Source of the DNA: Roseovarius sp. M141
GTDB taxonomy: Bacteria; Pseudomonadota; Alphaproteobacteria; Rhodobacterales; Rhodobacteraceae
DNA: 64,000 nt
NCBI RefSeq assembly: GCF_024355225.1
Contig: NZ_VCNH01000008.1
Coordinates: forward strand, 186,001 to 250,000
Reading direction: 5' to 3'
In this document: positions 3,405 through 54,342 of the stretch, one piece after another
How positions within the stretch are numbered: the first letter of the stretch is position 1
How the letters are laid out: each line of letters opens with the position of its first letter
Notes under the pieces: generated by a model
What the model was told of the DNA's origin: nothing
Databases searched by the model: none
Seen by the model: only the letters and a program-made list of their open reading frames with translations
Position numbers and translations under genes: made by a program

Positions 3405-3640
3405 GTCCGTCGCCCGGCACACCCCACCACCGCCTGCATCGTGACCATGACCACTAGGGCCGCCAGCGACATCTACCCAGATCCGCAAGCCAAACCGATG
3501 CCGCCTGCCAGCCACATGGATGCACCGGGGCCCGTGTTGCGCCCCTTGCCGCCCGAGGCAACGAGGATCCAGGCCGTCACCCCTTCGGTCAGCCGCATTG
3601 GGTTGATTTCCAACTTGCCGCCCGCGCCAAAGGGAATGGG
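3405..3640 (-). pseudogene. Probable MgtC/SapB-family membrane protein remnant
   Basis: On the minus strand a short frame reads MRLTEGVTAWILVASGG and then GASMWLAGGIGLACGSG before a stop at 3473. It continues in a neighbouring frame with SLAALVVMVTM. The series resembles the last helices of MgtC/SapB proteins (a WxxAxIGLACG segment followed by a hydrophobic helix). No intact start or C-terminus is present and the frame is broken, so I read it as a decayed fragment between ftsY and the exporter gene. The identification rests on memory of the family pattern. Confidence 0.4.
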
Positions 3641-3661
3641 CAAACGGTGCGGACGTCCCAT

Positions 3662-4564
3662 ATGAGCGACTGGCTTATATCGCTGGAAGGCACGCCATCG
3701 GGCCACCATCTGGCGCTCGCGCTCGCCCTGCTGGCCGCAGTCCTGCACGCAGCCTTTGGCGCGCTGCAAAAGGGGCGGCACGATCCATGGCTGACGCGCG
3801 GCGCGATCGACGCCAGCTATGCGGTGATGGCCGCGCCCTTCGCCCTTTTCGTGGTGCCATGGCCCGAACCGCATATGTGGCCCATTTTCGTCGGCGCCTG
3901 GGCGATCCATATCGTCTACAAGGTGCTACAGGCCATGGCCTACACGCGCGGAGCCTATACGGTGGTCTATCCCGTGGTGCGCGGCACCGGGCCGCTATTC
4001 GCGGTGATCGGCGCCTATCTGATCTTTGGCGAACAGTTCAACCTCATTCAATGGGCCGGCGTCGCGGTGCTTCTGACGGGCATCTTCGGGCTGGCCGCCT
4101 ATAATCTGATGTATCTCACGGCAGAACGCAGCACCCTGCACGCCGCGCTGACGCTGGCCCTGATGACCGGCCTGCTGGTCGCGGCCTACACCACCTACGA
4201 CGCCTACGGCATTCGGGCGACCGCCAATCCGTTCACATTCCTCGCGTGGTTTTTCCTGATCGACGGGCTGACCATGCCGGTGATCGCGCTGCGCCGCTGG
4301 CGCGCGATGCCTGCGCCCCCCGCCCCCGGTCCGCTGATGGTGCGCGGTGTTATCGGCGGCATCGTCGCCTTCTTTTCATTCGGGTCGATCATGATGGCCA
4401 CCCGCCTGGGCAATGTCGGCGAGGCCGCAGTGCTGCGCGAAACCTCGACCGTGTTTGCGGCCCTTATCGGCTGGCTGGTGCTGGGCGAAACGGTAGGCCC
4501 GCGCCGCACCGCGCTGATGTGCTTGATTGCCATCGGCGCCGTGATAGTAGAAATGGGCGGATAA
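3662..4564 (+). CDS. EamA/DMT-superfamily transporter
   Basis: A 300-residue integral membrane protein with about ten hydrophobic segments in two repeated halves, as in drug/metabolite exporters (RhaT/EamA type). Recognisable features are the GAYTVVYPVVRGTGPLFAVI segment at the end of the first half and REtSTVFAALIGWLVLGE at the end of the second. The start ATG at 3662 precedes the first helix; an in-frame GTG upstream adds only five residues. The substrate cannot be predicted. The gene ends 10 bases before yciB and the two are likely co-transcribed. Confidence 0.85.
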   Translation: MSDWLISLEGTPSGHHLALALALLAAVLHAAFGALQKGRHDPWLTRGAIDASYAVMAAPFALFVVPWPEPHMWPIFVGAWAIHIVYKVLQAMAYTRGAYTVVYPVVRGTGPLFAVIGAYLIFGEQFNLIQWAGVAVLLTGIFGLAAYNLMYLTAERSTLHAALTLALMTGLLVAAYTTYDAYGIRATANPFTFLAWFFLIDGLTMPVIALRRWRAMPAPPAPGPLMVRGVIGGIVAFFSFGSIMMATRLGNVGEAAVLRETSTVFAALIGWLVLGETVGPRRTALMCLIAIGAVIVEMGG

Positions 4565-48185: not shown

Positions 48186-49043
48186 TTAAGCGACCTTTCG
48201 TTCGAAAGCGACAGGGCTTTTCCAGCCCAGTGCTGAGTGTCGGCGGCGCGGATTGTAGAAGCCATTGATGTATTCAAAGATTGCCATCTCGGCCTTCCGC
48301 CGTGTTTCCCACGGATGTCGCCAGATCAGTTCAGCCTTGATGGATTTACAGAAGGTCTCGACAGCTGCATTATCATGGCAATTGCCTTTGCCACTCATCG
48401 ATACCTTGAACCCATGTTGGCGTAGGATTTTCTGGTAGTCGTGTGAACAATACTGACTGCCACGGTCCGTGTGATGAATGCAGCCCTGGGGCGGTGACCG
48501 GAACGCAATTGCCATCTTCGATGCCCGGATCGCCAGATCACGCTTCATCCGATTTGAGACGGCCCAACCGATGATACGCCGCGAATGCAGGTCAAGGATC
48601 CCAGCGAGATACAGCCAACCCTCACGGGTCCAAACATACCTGATGTCGCCCGCCCACTTTCGATTGGGCTTGTTCGCGCTGAAGTCACGATCCAGCAGGT
48701 TTGGCGCGATGTTAAACTTGTGATCGCTATCTGTTGTCACCTTGTGCTTGCGGGTTCTGACAACGGATATGCCATTCTCACGCATCAATCTGCCGACGCG
48801 ACGGTGGCCAACATCTAGGCCGATCTCCTTCAACTCCTCCGTCATCCGTGGCCTGCCATACCTGCCCAGGCTGAGGCGCGACTGCTCTTTGATATGAGCC
48901 AACGTGACCAGATCAGATCGCTGCCTACGGCTGGCAGGGCGGGTGCGCAAAGCACGCAAGCCGCGTGGACCGACATCCATGACATGGCACATCCGGCCAA
49001 TGGAAAACGTAGATTGGGGCTCCTCGATGAACTTAAACCTCAC
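48186..49043 (-). CDS. IS3-family transposase OrfB
   Basis: 285 residues with an HTH_21-like region and the rve/DDE integrase core: first Asp in WAGDIRYVWT, second in HHTDRGSQYCSHDY, Glu in NAAVETFCKSIKAELIWR, and the usual end FYNPRRRHSALGWKSPVAFE. It starts at GTG 49043, overlapping the orfA stop, for translational coupling or frameshifting into OrfAB. It appears intact. Confidence 0.92.
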   Translation of the reverse strand: MRFKFIEEPQSTFSIGRMCHVMDVGPRGLRALRTRPASRRQRSDLVTLAHIKEQSRLSLGRYGRPRMTEELKEIGLDVGHRRVGRLMRENGISVVRTRKHKVTTDSDHKFNIAPNLLDRDFSANKPNRKWAGDIRYVWTREGWLYLAGILDLHSRRIIGWAVSNRMKRDLAIRASKMAIAFRSPPQGCIHHTDRGSQYCSHDYQKILRQHGFKVSMSGKGNCHDNAAVETFCKSIKAELIWRHPWETRRKAEMAIFEYINGFYNPRRRHSALGWKSPVAFERKVA

Positions 49044-49315
49044 GGCTTTTGGCGCGCGAAGAACACCGTGGCCCTTTTTAGGATTTCCCTTTCCTCCTTG
49101 AGAATACGGTTCTCGCGCCGGAGGCGGTCATTCTCTTGAGCCAGTCCCAAATCCTCTTTCGACACCACATCAGTGTCTCGGTGTGCTGTGATCCATTTGT
49201 TCAGCGTCGACATACCGACACCAAGATCATCAGCCACCTGCTTACGCGTCAACCCACTGGTCAGTGCGATCCGCACCGCATCTTGCCTAAATTCGTCTGT
49301 CCGCTTCAGTCCCAT
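49040..49315 (-). CDS. IS3-family transposase OrfA
   Basis: 91 residues: helix-turn-helix (MGLKRTDEFRQDAVRIALTS, then VADDLGVGMSTLNKWI) and a leucine-zipper-like coiled coil (ENDRLRRENRILKEEREILK) ending ATVFFARQKP, the classic OrfA layout. It binds the IS ends together with OrfB. Confidence 0.92.
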   Translation of the reverse strand: MGLKRTDEFRQDAVRIALTSGLTRKQVADDLGVGMSTLNKWITAHRDTDVVSKEDLGLAQENDRLRRENRILKEEREILKRATVFFARQKP

Positions 49316-49640: not shown

Positions 49641-49842
49641 TTAGAGGTGGCCTGACAAATCTGAACAGTTGAGTTAGGTGGATTTTCTGCTCCCAATCCG
49701 GCAGCTTTGTCGGGATTAAGGAGCGAAGATGACAAGACGTCCCAGACGGAACCACAGCCCAGCCTTCAAGGCGAAGGTCGCATTGGCGGCGTTGAAGGGC
49801 GACAGAACGATGAGCGAGCTGGCGACACAGTTTGATCTGCAT

Positions 49843-49883
49843 CTATTACCGGCAGTGCATTCGCACAGCGAATGTCATGAGAG
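49843..49883 (+). repeat. 41-bp hairpin element, copy 1
   Basis: It is inserted between the codons for FDLH and ANQIK of orfA. The left part CTATTACCGGCAG is followed by a stem CATTCGC-ACA-GCGAATG and a right part ending GAGAG(G). It shares flanks, but not stem sequence, with the elements at 50067 and 54115. Confidence 0.75.
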
Positions 49884-50066
49884 GCCAACCAGATCAAGCA
49901 GTGGAAGGACCGGCTCCTGGACGGCGTGTCAGATGTGTTTGACGATAAGCCCAATGCGTCGAGGGAGCCGGAGATCGATGTCAAATCTCTGCATGCGAAG
50001 ATTGGCCAGCTAGCGCTGGAAAATGATTTTTCAGAAGGAGCGCTCGACAAGGCCGGTCTGTTGTCC

Positions 50067-50106
50067 CGCTGCCCGGCAGGCGATTGCATAGCAATCTGCC
50101 GAGAGG
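50067..50106 (+). repeat. 40-bp hairpin element, copy 2
   Basis: It is inserted at the end of orfA, between LLS and ERKEMT codons. Left part CGCTGCCCGGCAG, stem GATTGC-ATA-GCAATC, right part TGCCGAGAGG. It is the copy closest to a consensus. Confidence 0.8.
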
Positions 50107-50118
50107 GAGCGCAAGGAA

Positions 50119-50949
50119 ATGACGGACCCGAACCACAGGCTGAGCCTTACACGGCAGGCTAGGCTTCTCGGGATCAGCCGAGGGAGTCTCTACTATGAAC
50201 CACGCCCGACCAGCGACGCGGACCTCAAGCTGATGCGCCGGATCGACGCGCTGCACATGGAATATCCGTTTGCTGGCAGTCGGATGATGAAGGGCCTGCT
50301 CAGGCAGGAAAGCTTCACCGTCGGGCGGCTGCATGTCGCGACCTGCATGAAGATCATGGGCATCGAGGCGCTCTATCGCAGGCCAAACACGTCGAAACCG
50401 GCACCCGGCCACAAGATATATCCCTATCTGCTGCGCAAACTGGCCGTGACCCGCCCCAATCAGGTCTGGGCGATGGACATTACATACATCCCAATGGCCC
50501 GAGGGTTCGTCTATCTGGTTGCGGTTCTGGACTGGTTCAGCCGCAAAGTGCTGGCCTGGCGGCTGTCGGTGACGCTGGAAACCGCACCGTGCCTGGAGGC
50601 TTTGAATGAAGCCATGCGCAGATATGGCAAACCGGAGATCATGAATACGGATCAGGGGTCACAGTTCACATCCATCGACTTCATCAAGGCGCTGAAGGAC
50701 GCCGACATCCAGATCAGCATGGACGGCAAAGGGGCCTGGCGCGACAACGTCTTTGTCGAACGCCTCTGGCGGAGCATAAAATACGAAGAGGTCTATTTGC
50801 ACGCCTACGACAGCGTGTCGGCAGCCCGCAGCGGCATTGCCCGCTACCTGACGTTCTATAACACAAGGAGACCGCATTCATCGCTGGACGGGCAGACGCC
50901 CCATCAGGCATATCACATCAAGCCGCAGCCAATCCCGGTGGCGGCATAA
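50119..50949 (+). CDS. IS3-family transposase OrfB
   Basis: 276 residues from ATG 50119: HTH region LSLTRQARLLGISRGSLYYE and DDE core (Asp in VWAMDITYIPMARGF, Asp in MNTDQGSQFTS, Glu in NVFVERLWRSIKYEEVYL), ending RPHSSLDGQTPHQAYH. It is intact, but its partner orfA is broken upstream. Confidence 0.92.
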   Translation: MTDPNHRLSLTRQARLLGISRGSLYYEPRPTSDADLKLMRRIDALHMEYPFAGSRMMKGLLRQESFTVGRLHVATCMKIMGIEALYRRPNTSKPAPGHKIYPYLLRKLAVTRPNQVWAMDITYIPMARGFVYLVAVLDWFSRKVLAWRLSVTLETAPCLEALNEAMRRYGKPEIMNTDQGSQFTSIDFIKALKDADIQISMDGKGAWRDNVFVERLWRSIKYEEVYLHAYDSVSAARSGIARYLTFYNTRRPHSSLDGQTPHQAYHIKPQPIPVAA

Positions 50950-51139
50950 CCGAGCGGGAAATCCACCAAGAAACGGCGCGGAACTGTTCAGACACACCGA
51001 ACCACCTCTAAGTATCAGTTGAAACTCAGATCAGGTCTCCAAAGCAAAAGGGCTTTAATATTGCGGTCCATATTTAATGCTAGTCACCCGGAACCAAATT
51101 TGCCATCATTGATATGAGGCAAATTTTGGGGGGTACGGC

Positions 51140-51667
51140 ATGCGGGGTCGGGCATCTGTTGCGATTTCACTCAGCGATGAGGAGCGCGGTTTTCTGGAAG
51201 CGCAGTTGCGCAGGCACAAGGCGGCGCGGTCGCTGTCCGACAGGTGCCGGATCGTGTTGAGGTGCGCTGACGGCCTGACCAGCAAGGAGATCGCCGCCGA
51301 ACTCGGCCATTCCGAGCATACGGTCGGCAAGTGGCGGCGGCGGTTTGCCGAGCAGCGCATCGAAGGCCTTTCTGACGAGTATCGCGCGGGCCGCCCACGA
51401 ACGATCTCGGACGAACAGGTTGCCGATGTGATCAAACGAACGCTGGAAACCACGCCAAAGGATGCAACCCATTGGTCGATCCGGTCGATGGCCGAAGAAA
51501 TCGGCCTGTCACACACCACGATTCGCCGCATCTGGAACGCCTTTGGGCTGCAGCCGCACCGCGCTGAAACCTTCAAGCTGTCCACCGACCCGCTGTTCGT
51601 GGACAAGGTGCAGGACGTGGTCGGCCTCTACATGTCGCCGCCGAACCGGGCTATCGTATTGTGTGTA
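51140..51667 (+). pseudogene. IS630-family transposase, N-terminal half
   Basis: About 176 residues: ISLSDEERGFLEAQLRRHKA, helix-turn-helix GLTSKEIAAELGHSEHTVGK WRRRF, winged region EEIGLSHTTIRRIWNAFGL, up to YMSPPNRAIVLCV where the reading frame meets the inserted element. Joined to 53175 by one copy of TGTGTAG, the frame continues as LCVDEKSQI, restoring the first catalytic aspartate. Confidence 0.88.
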
Positions 51668-53174
51668 GTCCAATCTGAACAACTTCCAGACATCTGATTT
51701 TGCTGGGAAACAGGTCGATTTTGTTGAGTCATAAGTGCAGGGTTTGGTATTGTGTGGGCAGAAACTCTGCAATTATGAGCCGTGATATGAAGCCGCGAAA
51801 ACCGCCCCCGGAACAAGACGATCTTCTGCGCGCCCGATTGGTCGAGATGATCGACATGCGCCATGAGCTGGTGAAGCTGGCCGCCCTGATTGACTGGGAC
51901 ATCTTCGAGCGGGAATGGGCCGGGTTCTTTCCGTCCCATACCGGCCGCCCGGCGACGCCGCCGCGGCTGGTTGCGGGGTTGTGCTACCTCCAGCATGCCT
52001 TCGCGCTCTCGGACGAGGCGGTCGTGGCCCGGTGGGCCGAAAACCCGTATTGGCAGCATTTCTGCGGCGAGACGTTCTTTCAGCACCGCCTGCCAATCGA
52101 CCCGTCGTCGCTGACCCGGTGGCGCAAACGGATCGGCGAGGAAGGTGTCGAGTGGCTGCTGACCCAGACGATCGAGGCCGGGAAACGCGCCGGGGCGGTG
52201 AAGAGCGATGACCTCAAGCGGGTCACGGTGGATACCACGGTGATGGAAAAGAACATCGCACACCCGACGGATGCGCGGCTGTATGAGACGGCGCGGCGCA
52301 AGCTGGTCGGGCTGGCCCGCGAGGCCGGGATCGGCCTGCGCCAGAACTACAACCGCCTCGCACCCCGGCTGGCCGGCCAGGTGGGCCGCTATGCCCATGC
52401 CCGCCAATTCAAGCGGATGCGCAAGGCACTGCGCCGTCTCAAGGGCTACACCGGTCGCGTGCTGCGCGACGTCGAGCGGCAACTGGACAAGGTTCCGGAA
52501 GGGGCGTTGAGGGCGCGCCTGGTGGAGATGATCGTGCTGGTGAGCCGGCTGCTGGCGCAGAAGCCGAAGGACAGGGGCAAGCTCTACAGCCTGCATGAAC
52601 CGGCGGTGGACTGCATCTCCAAGGGCAAGGCGCACAAACGCTACGAGTTCGGCACCAAAGTCAGCGTGGCCACGACCAACCGAGGCGGCTTCGTGGTCGG
52701 GATGCGGGCGCTGCCGGGGAATCCCTACGATGGCCACACGCTGAGCGAGGCCTTGGAGCAGGTCGAAATCCTGACCGACCAGCGGCCCGAGATGGCCTTT
52801 GTCGATCGCGGATACCGTGGCCACGGCGTCGAGAATGTGAAGGTCTTCCTCAGCGGTGCCAAGCGTGGCGTAACCCGAACCATCGCCAGGCTCCTGCGAC
52901 GGCGAAGCGCAATCGAACCGATGATCGGCCACATGAAGAACGACGGACGCCTGACGCGAAGCCCCTTGAAGGGAACCGCCGGAGATGCCCTCTTCGCCGT
53001 CCTTTGCGGCTGTGGTCACAACATTCGCATGATCCTCAGGCACCTTAGGGTCCTTTTGTCTCAACTGATTTGGCTGATCTGCCAAGCATGCATGATCGTT
53101 CACGCGGAAATGGCACGTGATCGAAGAGGTCAGGGCGGCAAACTGGCAACCTGATGGCGATGTTCAGGACGGAC
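51668..53174 (+). mobile_element. IS5-like insertion sequence with 7-bp target duplication
   Basis: 1507 bp inserted in the IS630 transposase gene. TGTGTAG occurs directly before (51661-51667) and after (53175-53181). The ends show an imperfect inverted repeat, TCCAATCTGAACAAC against GTCCGTCCTGAACATC. One intact transposase gene fills it. It is the youngest insertion in this cluster by stratigraphy. Confidence 0.85.
51775..53154 (+). CDS. IS5-family transposase
   Basis: 459 residues. The N-terminal DUF772-type region has FFPSHTGRPATPPRLVAGLC and HFCGETFFQHRLPIDPSSLT. The DDE domain has Asp in VTVDTTVMEKNIAHPTD, Asp in MAFVDRGYRGHGVENV and Glu in AIEPMIGHMKNDGRL. A long Arg/Lys-rich insert sits between the first two. 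ATG 51775 is preferred; 25 codons upstream are open but reach into the terminal repeat. It appears functional. Confidence 0.88.
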   Translation: MSRDMKPRKPPPEQDDLLRARLVEMIDMRHELVKLAALIDWDIFEREWAGFFPSHTGRPATPPRLVAGLCYLQHAFALSDEAVVARWAENPYWQHFCGETFFQHRLPIDPSSLTRWRKRIGEEGVEWLLTQTIEAGKRAGAVKSDDLKRVTVDTTVMEKNIAHPTDARLYETARRKLVGLAREAGIGLRQNYNRLAPRLAGQVGRYAHARQFKRMRKALRRLKGYTGRVLRDVERQLDKVPEGALRARLVEMIVLVSRLLAQKPKDRGKLYSLHEPAVDCISKGKAHKRYEFGTKVSVATTNRGGFVVGMRALPGNPYDGHTLSEALEQVEILTDQRPEMAFVDRGYRGHGVENVKVFLSGAKRGVTRTIARLLRRRSAIEPMIGHMKNDGRLTRSPLKGTAGDALFAVLCGCGHNIRMILRHLRVLLSQLIWLICQACMIVHAEMARDRRGQGGKLAT

Positions 53175-53181
53175 TGTGTAG

Positions 53182-53750
53182 ATGAAAAATCCCAGATTCA
53201 GGCGCTGGATCGCGAACAGCCGGTGTTGCCCATGGCCCCCGGCGTGGCCGAGCGGAGAACCCATACCTACACCCGAAACGGCACGACATCGTTGTTTGCC
53301 GCCCTCGACATTGCCACCGGAGCGGTGATCGGGAAGTGCTACAAACGCCACCGCGCGACGGAGTTCCTCGACTTCCTCAAGGAACTCGACCGCAGGATAC
53401 CCAAGGGGCGGGACGTGCATATCGTCATGGATAACTACGCCACCCACAAGACGCCGGGGGTCAAGGCATGGCTGGCGCGCCGCCCGCACTGGCATGTGCA
53501 TTTCACACCGACATCGGCAAGCTGGCTGAACCAGGTCGAACGCTGGTTTGCCGAGTTAACCCGCAAACAAATCCAGCGCGGCGTTCACCGCTCTGTCGCG
53601 GAACTCGAAGCCGATATCGCCGCATTTATCGATGCCCACAACGAGAACCCCAAGCCCTACAAATGGGTCAAGTCCGCCGACGAAATCCTAGCCTCCGTCA
53701 AAAGGTTCTGTCAGAAAACACTGGCAGGAACTTCAGATTCAGGTGACTAG
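53182..53750 (+). pseudogene. IS630-family transposase, C-terminal half
   Basis: It continues the interrupted gene: SQIQALDREQPVLPMAPGVA, LFAALDIATGAVIGKCYKRH, the second aspartate in DVHIVMDNYATHKTPGVKAW, and the glutamate in SWLNQVERWFAELTRKQIQR. The stop TAG at 53748-53750 uses the duplicated TA target, so the element borrows its last bases from the insertion site. Confidence 0.88.
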
Positions 53751-54190
53751 GCTCTGGACCCATTGATTGGCTTGAAGCTACGAGTCCTTGATGATTCAAG
53801 CTCCCGGAGTGATGGGGGGTGCTGATGAGCAATTTTTACGGGCTGAGCGAAGATTAGATAGCGCGGTTTCGGCCATATTTTCCGAAGAGCCATGGGGTAC
53901 CGCGTGTCGGTGACCAGCGCGTTCTGAGTGGCATTATCTTCATAAATCGCAATGGGTTGCGCTGGCGCGATGCTCCCCGGGAGTATGGTCCGCACAAGAC
54001 CCTCTACAACCGCTGGAAACGGTGGAGCGACATTGGGGGTGTTCGCGCGAATCATGACGGGCCTGGCCGCCGAGGCACCCGACCACAAGACAATCTCGAT
54101 TGATGCAACCTATCCGCTGCCCGACAGGGGTTTGCCTACAAACCACGAGAGGGTCAAAGCACACCGCACGGCCTCGAGCCTGAGATCCTA
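53751..54190 (+). pseudogene. IS5-family transposase remnant, N-terminal
   Basis: From ATG 53824 the plus strand reads MSNFYGLSED, a TAG stop, then IARFRPYFPKSHGVPRVGDQ, VLSGIIFINRNGLRWRDAPR, YGPHKTLYNRWKRWSDI and a shift into TISIDATY. A hairpin element then interrupts it, and KAHRTASSL follows. It ends abruptly at about 54190 in a mobilisation gene. In intact copies the stop codon is Gln and the text reads IDATYLKAHRTASSL. It is dead by nonsense, frameshift, insertion and truncation. Confidence 0.8.
54115..54153 (+). repeat. 39-bp hairpin element, copy 3
   Basis: It is inserted in the codon for Leu of IDATY-L-KAHR. Left part CGCTGCCCGACAG, stem GGTTTG-CCTA-CAAACC, right part ACGAGAGGG. Removing it restores TAT-CTC-AAA-GCA. 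The flanks match copy 2 at nearly every base while the stem differs, yet stays fully paired. Confidence 0.8.
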
Positions 54191-54342
54191 GAGCGCGCCG
54201 TCGCGCGTCGATCGAGCAGGTAGCTCGAGACGCTGAGACCCGCCTCCTCGGCTTCGGCCTTCACGGCCTTCCATTCGGCATCGGTCGCTGAGATTTCGCG
54301 CCGCTTCACCTTCATACTGTCGTGTTTGCGTGGACGTGCCAT
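54188..54342 (-). pseudogene. Truncated MobC-like mobilisation protein
   Basis: From ATG 54342 (GGAGGAG 4 bases upstream) the minus strand reads MARPRKHDSMKVKRREISAT, then DAEWKAVKAEAEEAGLSVSS YLLDRR. This is the ribbon-helix-helix start of plasmid relaxosome accessory proteins (MobC/TraJ type). It is cut off at the IS5 remnant after about 50 residues. It indicates that a mobilisable plasmid or integrative element once lay here. Confidence 0.6.

Follow-up and report, generated by a model that had tools for sequence, protein, structure and literature searches.

The question raised by a 64,000-nucleotide stretch of the Roseovarius sp. M141 genome (contig NZ_VCNH01000008.1, positions 186,001 to 250,000; called the window below) is what the three short hairpin-forming insertions in its transposase genes are, and how they came to lie there. 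These insertions, designated E1, E2 and E3 and carried by insertion sequences (IS), are members of a real family with the layout CRYTGCCCGGCA, hairpin, then GAGAGGG, about 34–45 bp in all. We rate the family as belonging to the short palindromic mobile repeats. It probably represents non-autonomous elements of the Rhodobacteraceae that act at the DNA level, nest in IS and are spread by the copying of their host IS. The three members, their hosts and a hairpin-free IS of the same window are the following:

49844–49884, forward strand: E1, a 41-nt insertion of the TATTA/ATGAGAGG variant, in sense orientation in orfA of an IS3-type element.
50067–50107, forward strand: E2, a 41-nt insertion of the main type, in sense orientation near the end of the same orfA as E1.
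54115–54153, forward strand: E3, a 39-nt insertion in sense orientation in an IS5-type transposase relic.
49660–50992, forward strand: the host of E1 and E2, an apparently full-length IS3-family element, whose terminal inverted repeats TCTGAACAGTT/AACTGTTCAGA are imperfect and were recognised by eye; relatives without hairpins cover the same span.
53747–54182, forward strand: the host of E3, a truncated IS5-type element.
48186–49315, reverse strand: a hairpin-free IS3-type element with orfA and orfB, whose empty FI^EE site is filled in related copies elsewhere.

All three insertions listed by a first-pass annotation of this DNA are present, although two of its ends were off by one base. Two IS3 relatives that lack hairpins, one from a Phaeobacter inhibens plasmid (76.5% identity) and one from a Ketogulonicigenium vulgare plasmid (69.8%), were aligned with the host, which moved E1 from 49843–49883 to 49844–49884 and the end of E2 from 50106 to 50107, making both 41 nt long, while the span of E3 (39 nt) agreed with an empty relative in locus L186. 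The proposed comparison of empty and filled sites succeeded for E1, E2 and E3 alike: the 41 bases are absent at both the E1 and the E2 places in both plasmid relatives, and the E3 site is empty in the IS5 relative of L186, which is 70% alike, so that these bases are foreign to the normal IS sequence. The annotation had also held that removing each insertion restores the frame. This is true of E1, which in place causes a premature orfA stop and whose excision restores the orfA text. It is true only locally of E3 (ISIDATY^LKAHRTASSL), whose host copy is a relic with a frame shift upstream and a truncation downstream. It is not true of the 40-nt cut given for E2, which would join orfA and orfB into a single frame of ~380 codons. 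Because orfA of both relatives ends at the orfB start, we took the E2 gap as 41 nt, which on our reading of the alignment would be its natural length and would leave orfA ending at the overlap with the start of orfB, as in the relatives. The second part of the window IS3 gene matches IS3-type integrase-core families in Pfam.

Further copies were found above chance, as expected of the family that the first-pass annotation had proposed. In the own genome (G000), a loose pattern (CCTCTC, gap, CTGYCGG) gave 23 matches versus 5 for the reversed control, and a strict pattern gave 15 versus 0. With extended ends, the strict pattern was positive in 96 of 394 Rhodobacteraceae genomes (297 matches, summed over the table, versus 1 for the reversed-pattern control). 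A shorter strict pattern was positive in 9 of 60 relatives, the own genome being among the 60; four of those nine (G001, G009, G038 and G039) look like chance, as their matches contain no proper hairpin. Across the class, 5 of 289 genomes matched, and outside the Rhodobacteraceae convincing hairpins were found only in G620, the G039 match being without one. With a 41-base member as query, 97 plasmid records were matched, from Pseudosulfitobacter, Sulfitobacter, Leisingera, Phaeobacter, Dinoroseobacter, Sagittula, Roseobacter, Salipiger, Roseivivax, Antarctobacter and seven more genera, of which Pseudorhodobacter and Ruegeria appear among the plasmid matches listed; we take all the named genera to be Rhodobacterales. 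Well-studied marine bacteria are among the plasmid hosts (Dinoroseobacter shibae, Ruegeria pomeroyi, Sulfitobacter, Leisingera and Phaeobacter). Among the matches listed in a scan of public genomes, true members, mostly from Rhodobacterales, were mixed with chance matches. Just two partial and unconvincing matches occurred in 50,697 phage records, and 22 viral contig matches were obtained by pattern alone. The Rfam scan of 49700–54300 returned nothing up to E=5, and no description of the family was found in a literature search covering titles and the openings of abstracts.

The anatomy of the element was taken from 109 distinct sites. The left block reads C-R-Y-T-G-C-C-C-G-G-C-A followed by G (CRYTGCCCGGCA in short form), the stem has ~6–11 pairs and a short loop, with one bulged base (T or G) on the 3′ arm in a longer class, and the right block is GAGAGG, with a further G in 92% (GAGAGGG). 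The collecting pattern fixed much of both end blocks, so their invariance is partly by construction, and the stem filter of five consecutive pairs lost some true members, e.g., the second hairpin of the G000 IS5 element. Lengths range from 34 to 45, with 41 the commonest; E1, L008 and L112 represent a variant that has TATTA at its left end and ATGAGAGG at its right end. Among 39 distinct 41-base members with nine stem pairs, standard pairing was found in 99.1% of 351 cells. Seven of the nine pairs had changes on both sides, giving 59 doubly changed cells versus a shuffled mean of 20, a count reached in none of 500 shuffles. Sliding the partner by one base left pairing at ≤36%, and by three bases at ≤57%. 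RNAalifold closes two outer C-G pairs between the blocks, and both pairs never vary. A covariance model of 39 forty-one-base elements, including E2 and excluding E1 and E3, recovered E1 (E=5.5e-4) and E3 (E=1.2e-4) from the 64-kb window, the next match lying at 0.24. A family with conserved ends and self-complementary, covarying stems, noticed at first in three copies, is supported. The accompanying claim of selection on the hairpin is plausible but unproved, since arm-to-arm template copying also yields complementary stems.

Insertion is clean, occurs in a single orientation relative to the target and is not accompanied by target duplication. In most of the alignments listed, excision from the C of CRYTG to the third G reproduces the sequence of the empty homologue with no repeated target bases; L227 and L228 show a one-base difference in the G run. 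The target was compiled in element orientation from the 109 distinct sites: position −5 is C (40%) or T (38%), −4 is C (58%), −3 is A (49%) or G (31%), −2 is T (57%), −1 is C (73%) and +1 is G (80%), which is close to CRTC^G. A target profile trained on the 77 sites that remain without the IS3 group was tested on 1760 positions of the hairpin-free IS3 copy in the window, which differs in sequence from the filled IS3 copies. The recurrent FI^EE site ranked 2nd, and the best ranks within 0.7 codon of the other filled IS3 positions were 19, 59, 72, 125 (two hits), 177, 184, 245 and 431. Target preference accounts for the hottest site, not for all. The hairpin sequence showed no link with the flanks (stem-target homology) across 86 sites, and links between element and target positions were weak, the strongest being that of base −6 with the third element base.

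After grouping same-site copies and leaving out one RHS-like gene, 79 distinct sites were available to describe the habitat of the elements. For 75 of them, one flanking piece each was compared with Pfam (E≤0.01), while L101, L132, L174 and L177, which looked intergenic, stayed outside the scan. Transposase-associated families were matched at 44 of the 75 sites (some below Pfam's own cut-off); the remaining outcomes were a phage-type integrase (L011), RelE (L096), a weak DUF (L112) and no match at 28 sites, and three additional flanking pieces used as second tries gave no Pfam match. When flank similarity to a Pfam-positive piece of another locus ≤150 bases from the site was also accepted, 53 of the 79 sites lay in or beside transposase genes, so the insertion into transposase genes described for the window holds far outside it. 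Six further sites (L056, L076, L082, L084, L196 and L218) are IS-like by eye alone. The IS families hit, by our own reading of the Pfam names, include IS3, IS5, IS66, IS256, IS21, IS91, IS630-like and IS6-like. In the own genome, all 15 strict matches lie in IS genes or in one integrase, as judged by Pfam, similarity or reading.

Hairpin-bearing IS have multiplied, by themselves or with help in trans. In G072, all six full-length copies of one IS3 element, 99–100% alike and lying at different places, share a set of four hairpins (38, 40, 38 and 38 bases), two of them in sense and two in antisense orientation. The IS5 element that hosts E3 has three full-length copies in G000, each with two hairpins, one of them nearly the same as E3, in genes that are frameshifted elsewhere too. 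No hairpin-free full-length copy of the host IS was found in G072 or G000. Three of three identical copies in G094 carry one hairpin, relatives at 73–75% identity exist, and the Dinoroseobacter shibae plasmid NC_009958.1 has the element at the same place as G094 in an equally long molecule. At L219, L220, L223 and L225, G309 contains what appear to be IS5-type copies with internal deletions, which have multiplied and have the hairpin where the deletion begins or ends; L224 looks like their undeleted form. The multiplication of these internally deleted copies suggests that help in trans occurs.

The fate of the host genes was followed before and after the gain of the hairpins. In most diverged same-site pairs, the differences fall mostly on one codon position, L012–L015 and the frameshifted C2 pairs being less clear. 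In five pairs, which are partly non-sister on the tree and from which 22–64 ambiguous positions per pair were set aside, branches to filled copies carry 67 replacement and 121 silent changes, and branches to empty comparison copies 60 and 118. The codon-position bias and the similar replacement and silent counts on the branches indicate that these IS were functional for most of that time. The G072 copies carrying four hairpins show no visible constraint: after the gain, the six copies accumulated 12 replacement versus 3 silent changes over 870 replacement and 261 silent sites, a count that has no hairpin-free control. With their hairpins excised, orfA and orfB are open in all six copies (0 stops), the orfA start codon being lost in one. 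In host genes, 20 elements are in sense and 24 in antisense orientation (p=0.65), and 5 of these 44 oriented copies have lengths divisible by 3. Over the 109 sites, the remainder after division by 3 is 0 in 20, 1 in 36 and 2 in 53, with lengths as cut by the pattern and the last base uncertain by one in some copies. Taken together, the 12-to-3 count, the unbiased orientation and the lengths fit young, disabling DNA insertions better than removable introns.

Filled and empty copies intermingle on a DNA tree of 21 IS3 copies, where L176 groups with the empty L256 (support 1.00) and L178 with the empty L255 (0.98). L126, L176 and L178 are filled at one and the same codon by nearly identical hairpins, and L152 and L188 carry other hairpins at that same FI^EE site. 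L278, a distant copy too short in the alignment for the tree, is also filled at this place. Given the target preference, repeated gain is the simpler reading. L264 (G108), which was counted as empty on the tree, is free of the hairpin family and holds a different ~37-base insert between codons 147 and 148 of the IS3 orfB. This insert has its own palindrome CCATTGTCC..GGACCAATGG, is without CRYTG/GAGAGGG ends and is possibly a second family of hairpin inserts in IS.

The same copies could also be old residents, with a hairpin that was ancestral at each site, was kept for the function of the IS and was precisely lost in the empty relatives. Inheritance, or else very specific re-insertion, is best supported by the EPGS^P site, where identical 41-base hairpins (0/41 edits) occupy the same codon of four IS3 elements with flanks 72–82% alike, and by G123, where two IS5 copies share two identical hairpins and differ by a fifth to a quarter over the rest. 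The L126, L176 and L178 hairpins differ by just 1–2 of 41 bases, and by our count a single gain followed by several losses is only slightly costlier on the tree than gains at several points. However, L176 and L178 are sisters of empty copies, FI^EE is a top target from sequence alone, quite different hairpins (L152, L188 and L278) occupy that same site, and 0 changes in 41 bases is a poor fit to constraint on pairing only; we consider such long residence quite unlikely. Hardly credible is a micro-intron or ribosome-bypass element, removed from the transcript or hopped in translation, that would let the transposase stay functional. Some IS genes do become intact on excision of the hairpins (the window IS3, the four-hairpin IS of G072, L133 and L176), hairpin-free full-length copies are missing from G072 and G000, and in most comparisons the differences between same-site pairs concentrate on one codon position. 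The near-equal sense and antisense counts, however, are hard to square with RNA processing, which also deprives the RNA-borne element suggested by the first-pass annotation of support. Moreover, the G072 replacement changes after the gain point the same way (with the limit given above, and same-genome IS copies may drift anyway), the IS5 copies of G000 are also broken at other places, some filled copies are sisters of empty ones and 49700–54300 has no Rfam match. The mobile bypassing elements (byps) of yeast mitochondria are likewise short hairpins in coding genes, whereas the orientation of the present family is unbiased and nothing indicates that function survives insertion. Finally, the matched stem changes might arise by arm-to-arm template switching in a quasi-palindrome and not by selection on a hairpin used for movement. 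Template-switch mutation at quasi-palindromes has been described in E. coli (PMC7202029) and could be the source of part of the covariation. At L231 (~1425–1480, near 1471), the right block CGAGAGG is mirrored exactly on the left to give a full palindrome, the expected product of arm copying, which suggests that one arm was copied from the other. As an account of the stems in general, template switching is possible, though we lean against it: the left block and GAGAGGG stay unlike each other in the collected copies (a result to which the search pattern contributes), and all 39 members have G-C as their first stem pair (G in the pattern, C not), a pair that pure arm copying need not keep.

Among described systems, the nearest kinds are the repetitive extragenic palindromes (REPs) of the CGTC type and the Rickettsia palindromic elements (RPEs), from which the hairpin family differs in its ends, habitat and frame behaviour. 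REPs of the GTAG and CGTC superfamilies resemble it in being single hairpins of 20–40 bp, in which the unpaired end motifs are conserved while the stems vary; the CGTC type occurs mostly in alphaproteobacteria, seems to be without a dedicated transposase and has been equated with RPE-6 and RPE-4 (PMC3733652). Neither ‘Rhodobacter’ nor ‘Roseobacter’ appears as a word in the main text of that paper or of the RepRanger paper (PMC12306157). No GTAG or CGTC tag is present in the consensus of 39 elements, the end blocks are longer and asymmetric, and while REPs are mostly extragenic, the majority of sites here are in or beside transposase genes. RPEs are also palindromic insertions of alphaproteobacteria inside protein-coding genes, where they are in frame. 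By description, the family departs from them in its end motif, in its mainly transposase hosts and in its lengths, multiples of 3 in only 20 of 109, so the RPE membership raised by the first-pass annotation is not supported. Movement of REP-like repeats by a Y1 transposase (RAYT), or of IS200/605-type elements, would agree with the single hairpin and with directional insertion 3′ of a short motif without target duplication, both known for Y1 elements, and carriers have Y1 genes somewhat more often than other genomes do (elements occur in 16 of the 39 Y1-positive genomes versus 96 of 394 overall). This explanation is nevertheless very improbable, as PF01797 is matched in 39 of the 394 genomes and in 16 of the 96 carriers but not in the other 80, including G072, G126, G134, G309, G321, G378 and G383. 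The missing tags and the mostly intragenic location also speak against it. Hairpin ends are a trait shared with IS200/605 elements, but the present family has one hairpin only. A Y1 transposase as general partner was rejected on the same PF01797 result. Nor was a linked enzyme of the kind that the first-pass annotation advised looking for found, the search being aimed at Y1 transposases and not at reverse transcriptases; the non-autonomous nature that it proposed is upheld by the size of the elements. A structure-kept, sequence-variable hairpin with fixed end blocks also resembles integron attC sites, and it is unlikely that the elements are moved by reverse transcription or by a recombinase that reads structure much as integron integrases do on attC hairpins. 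The R boxes of attC, RYYYAAC and GTTRRRY, are absent from the consensus of 39 elements. With miniature inverted-repeat transposable elements (MITEs), the family shares short length, non-autonomy and multiple copies, but its ends are not mutual inverted repeats and its empty sites are clean, without target duplication.

We thus favour a non-autonomous DNA element nested in IS. In this scheme, a host or IS enzyme would recognise both end blocks while the hairpin is single-stranded or extruded, and would join it precisely at the target. We infer such an enzyme from three features: end blocks that are fixed, stems whose pairing is preserved, and insertion that is both precise and directional. Copies landing in an IS would then be multiplied and carried between genomes by that IS, which would be why IS genes hold most copies. 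Insertion would usually break the frame, a dead end for the transposase gene but not for the micro-element. A bolder version is speculative and in our judgement doubtful: that the elements are DNA hyperparasites, 40-base hairpins that favour transposase genes, are moved by a hairpin-reading recombinase and act as a widespread IS off-switch in the Roseobacter group.

Several observations weigh against the nested-element interpretation. No moving enzyme, autonomous relative or transposition event was found. No longer relatives with the same ends were present in 361 loci (1.68 Mb, mainly fetched around hairpins), in which 191 left ends have a right end within reach and 9 do not, six of these nine resembling mutated hairpins. 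The preference for IS was measured on pattern-fetched loci, and its size is uncorrected for the over-sampling of IS through copying; 26 of the 79 sites received no transposase assignment from the tools, and there is an intergenic-looking minority, which includes L060, L101, L132 (between tRNA genes), L177, L238 and, in G435, five copies. In the target-profile test, five positions close to filled IS3 sites came no higher than 125th to 431st of 1760, the 12-to-3 count stands uncontrolled, and the EPGS^P hairpins could also reflect early inheritance under strong conservation.

The usual view of short palindromic repeats places them between genes and links them with Y1 enzymes. The present family contrasts with this picture, lying mostly inside other mobile elements and being without a match to the expected enzyme in most carriers. 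It would explain a class of split transposase genes left blank by annotation, and it makes two questions testable, namely, what moves a 40-base hairpin and to what extent nested insertions limit IS activity.

Some individual loci deserve mention, two of them as exceptions to the disabling insertions. One is a hairpin of strain W028 that sits within a gene annotated as an IS3 transposase. The other is L298 (2790–3572; AP027374.1, Sulfitobacter pontiacus BL28 plasmid p2), where the element is apparently in frame in a gene that is IS30-like by reading and is annotated as a single open hypothetical protein. Rare non-IS hosts are an RHS-repeat-like gene (L171, by reading) and a RelE-like gene (L096, Pfam). 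At L132 (~3600–4100), the element between tRNA genes is near other short hairpins GCGTATTGCAAAGCAATGCGC without the left block. L205–L209, five places in G435, are intergenic repeats of ~200–300 bp, 84–90% alike, with nearly the same hairpin in the middle, and may be a separate larger repeat that swallowed an element. In the window itself, 51140–53750 was read by eye as a nest of mobile elements, in which an IS630-like transposase gene is apparently split by another IS (open frame 51700–53154).

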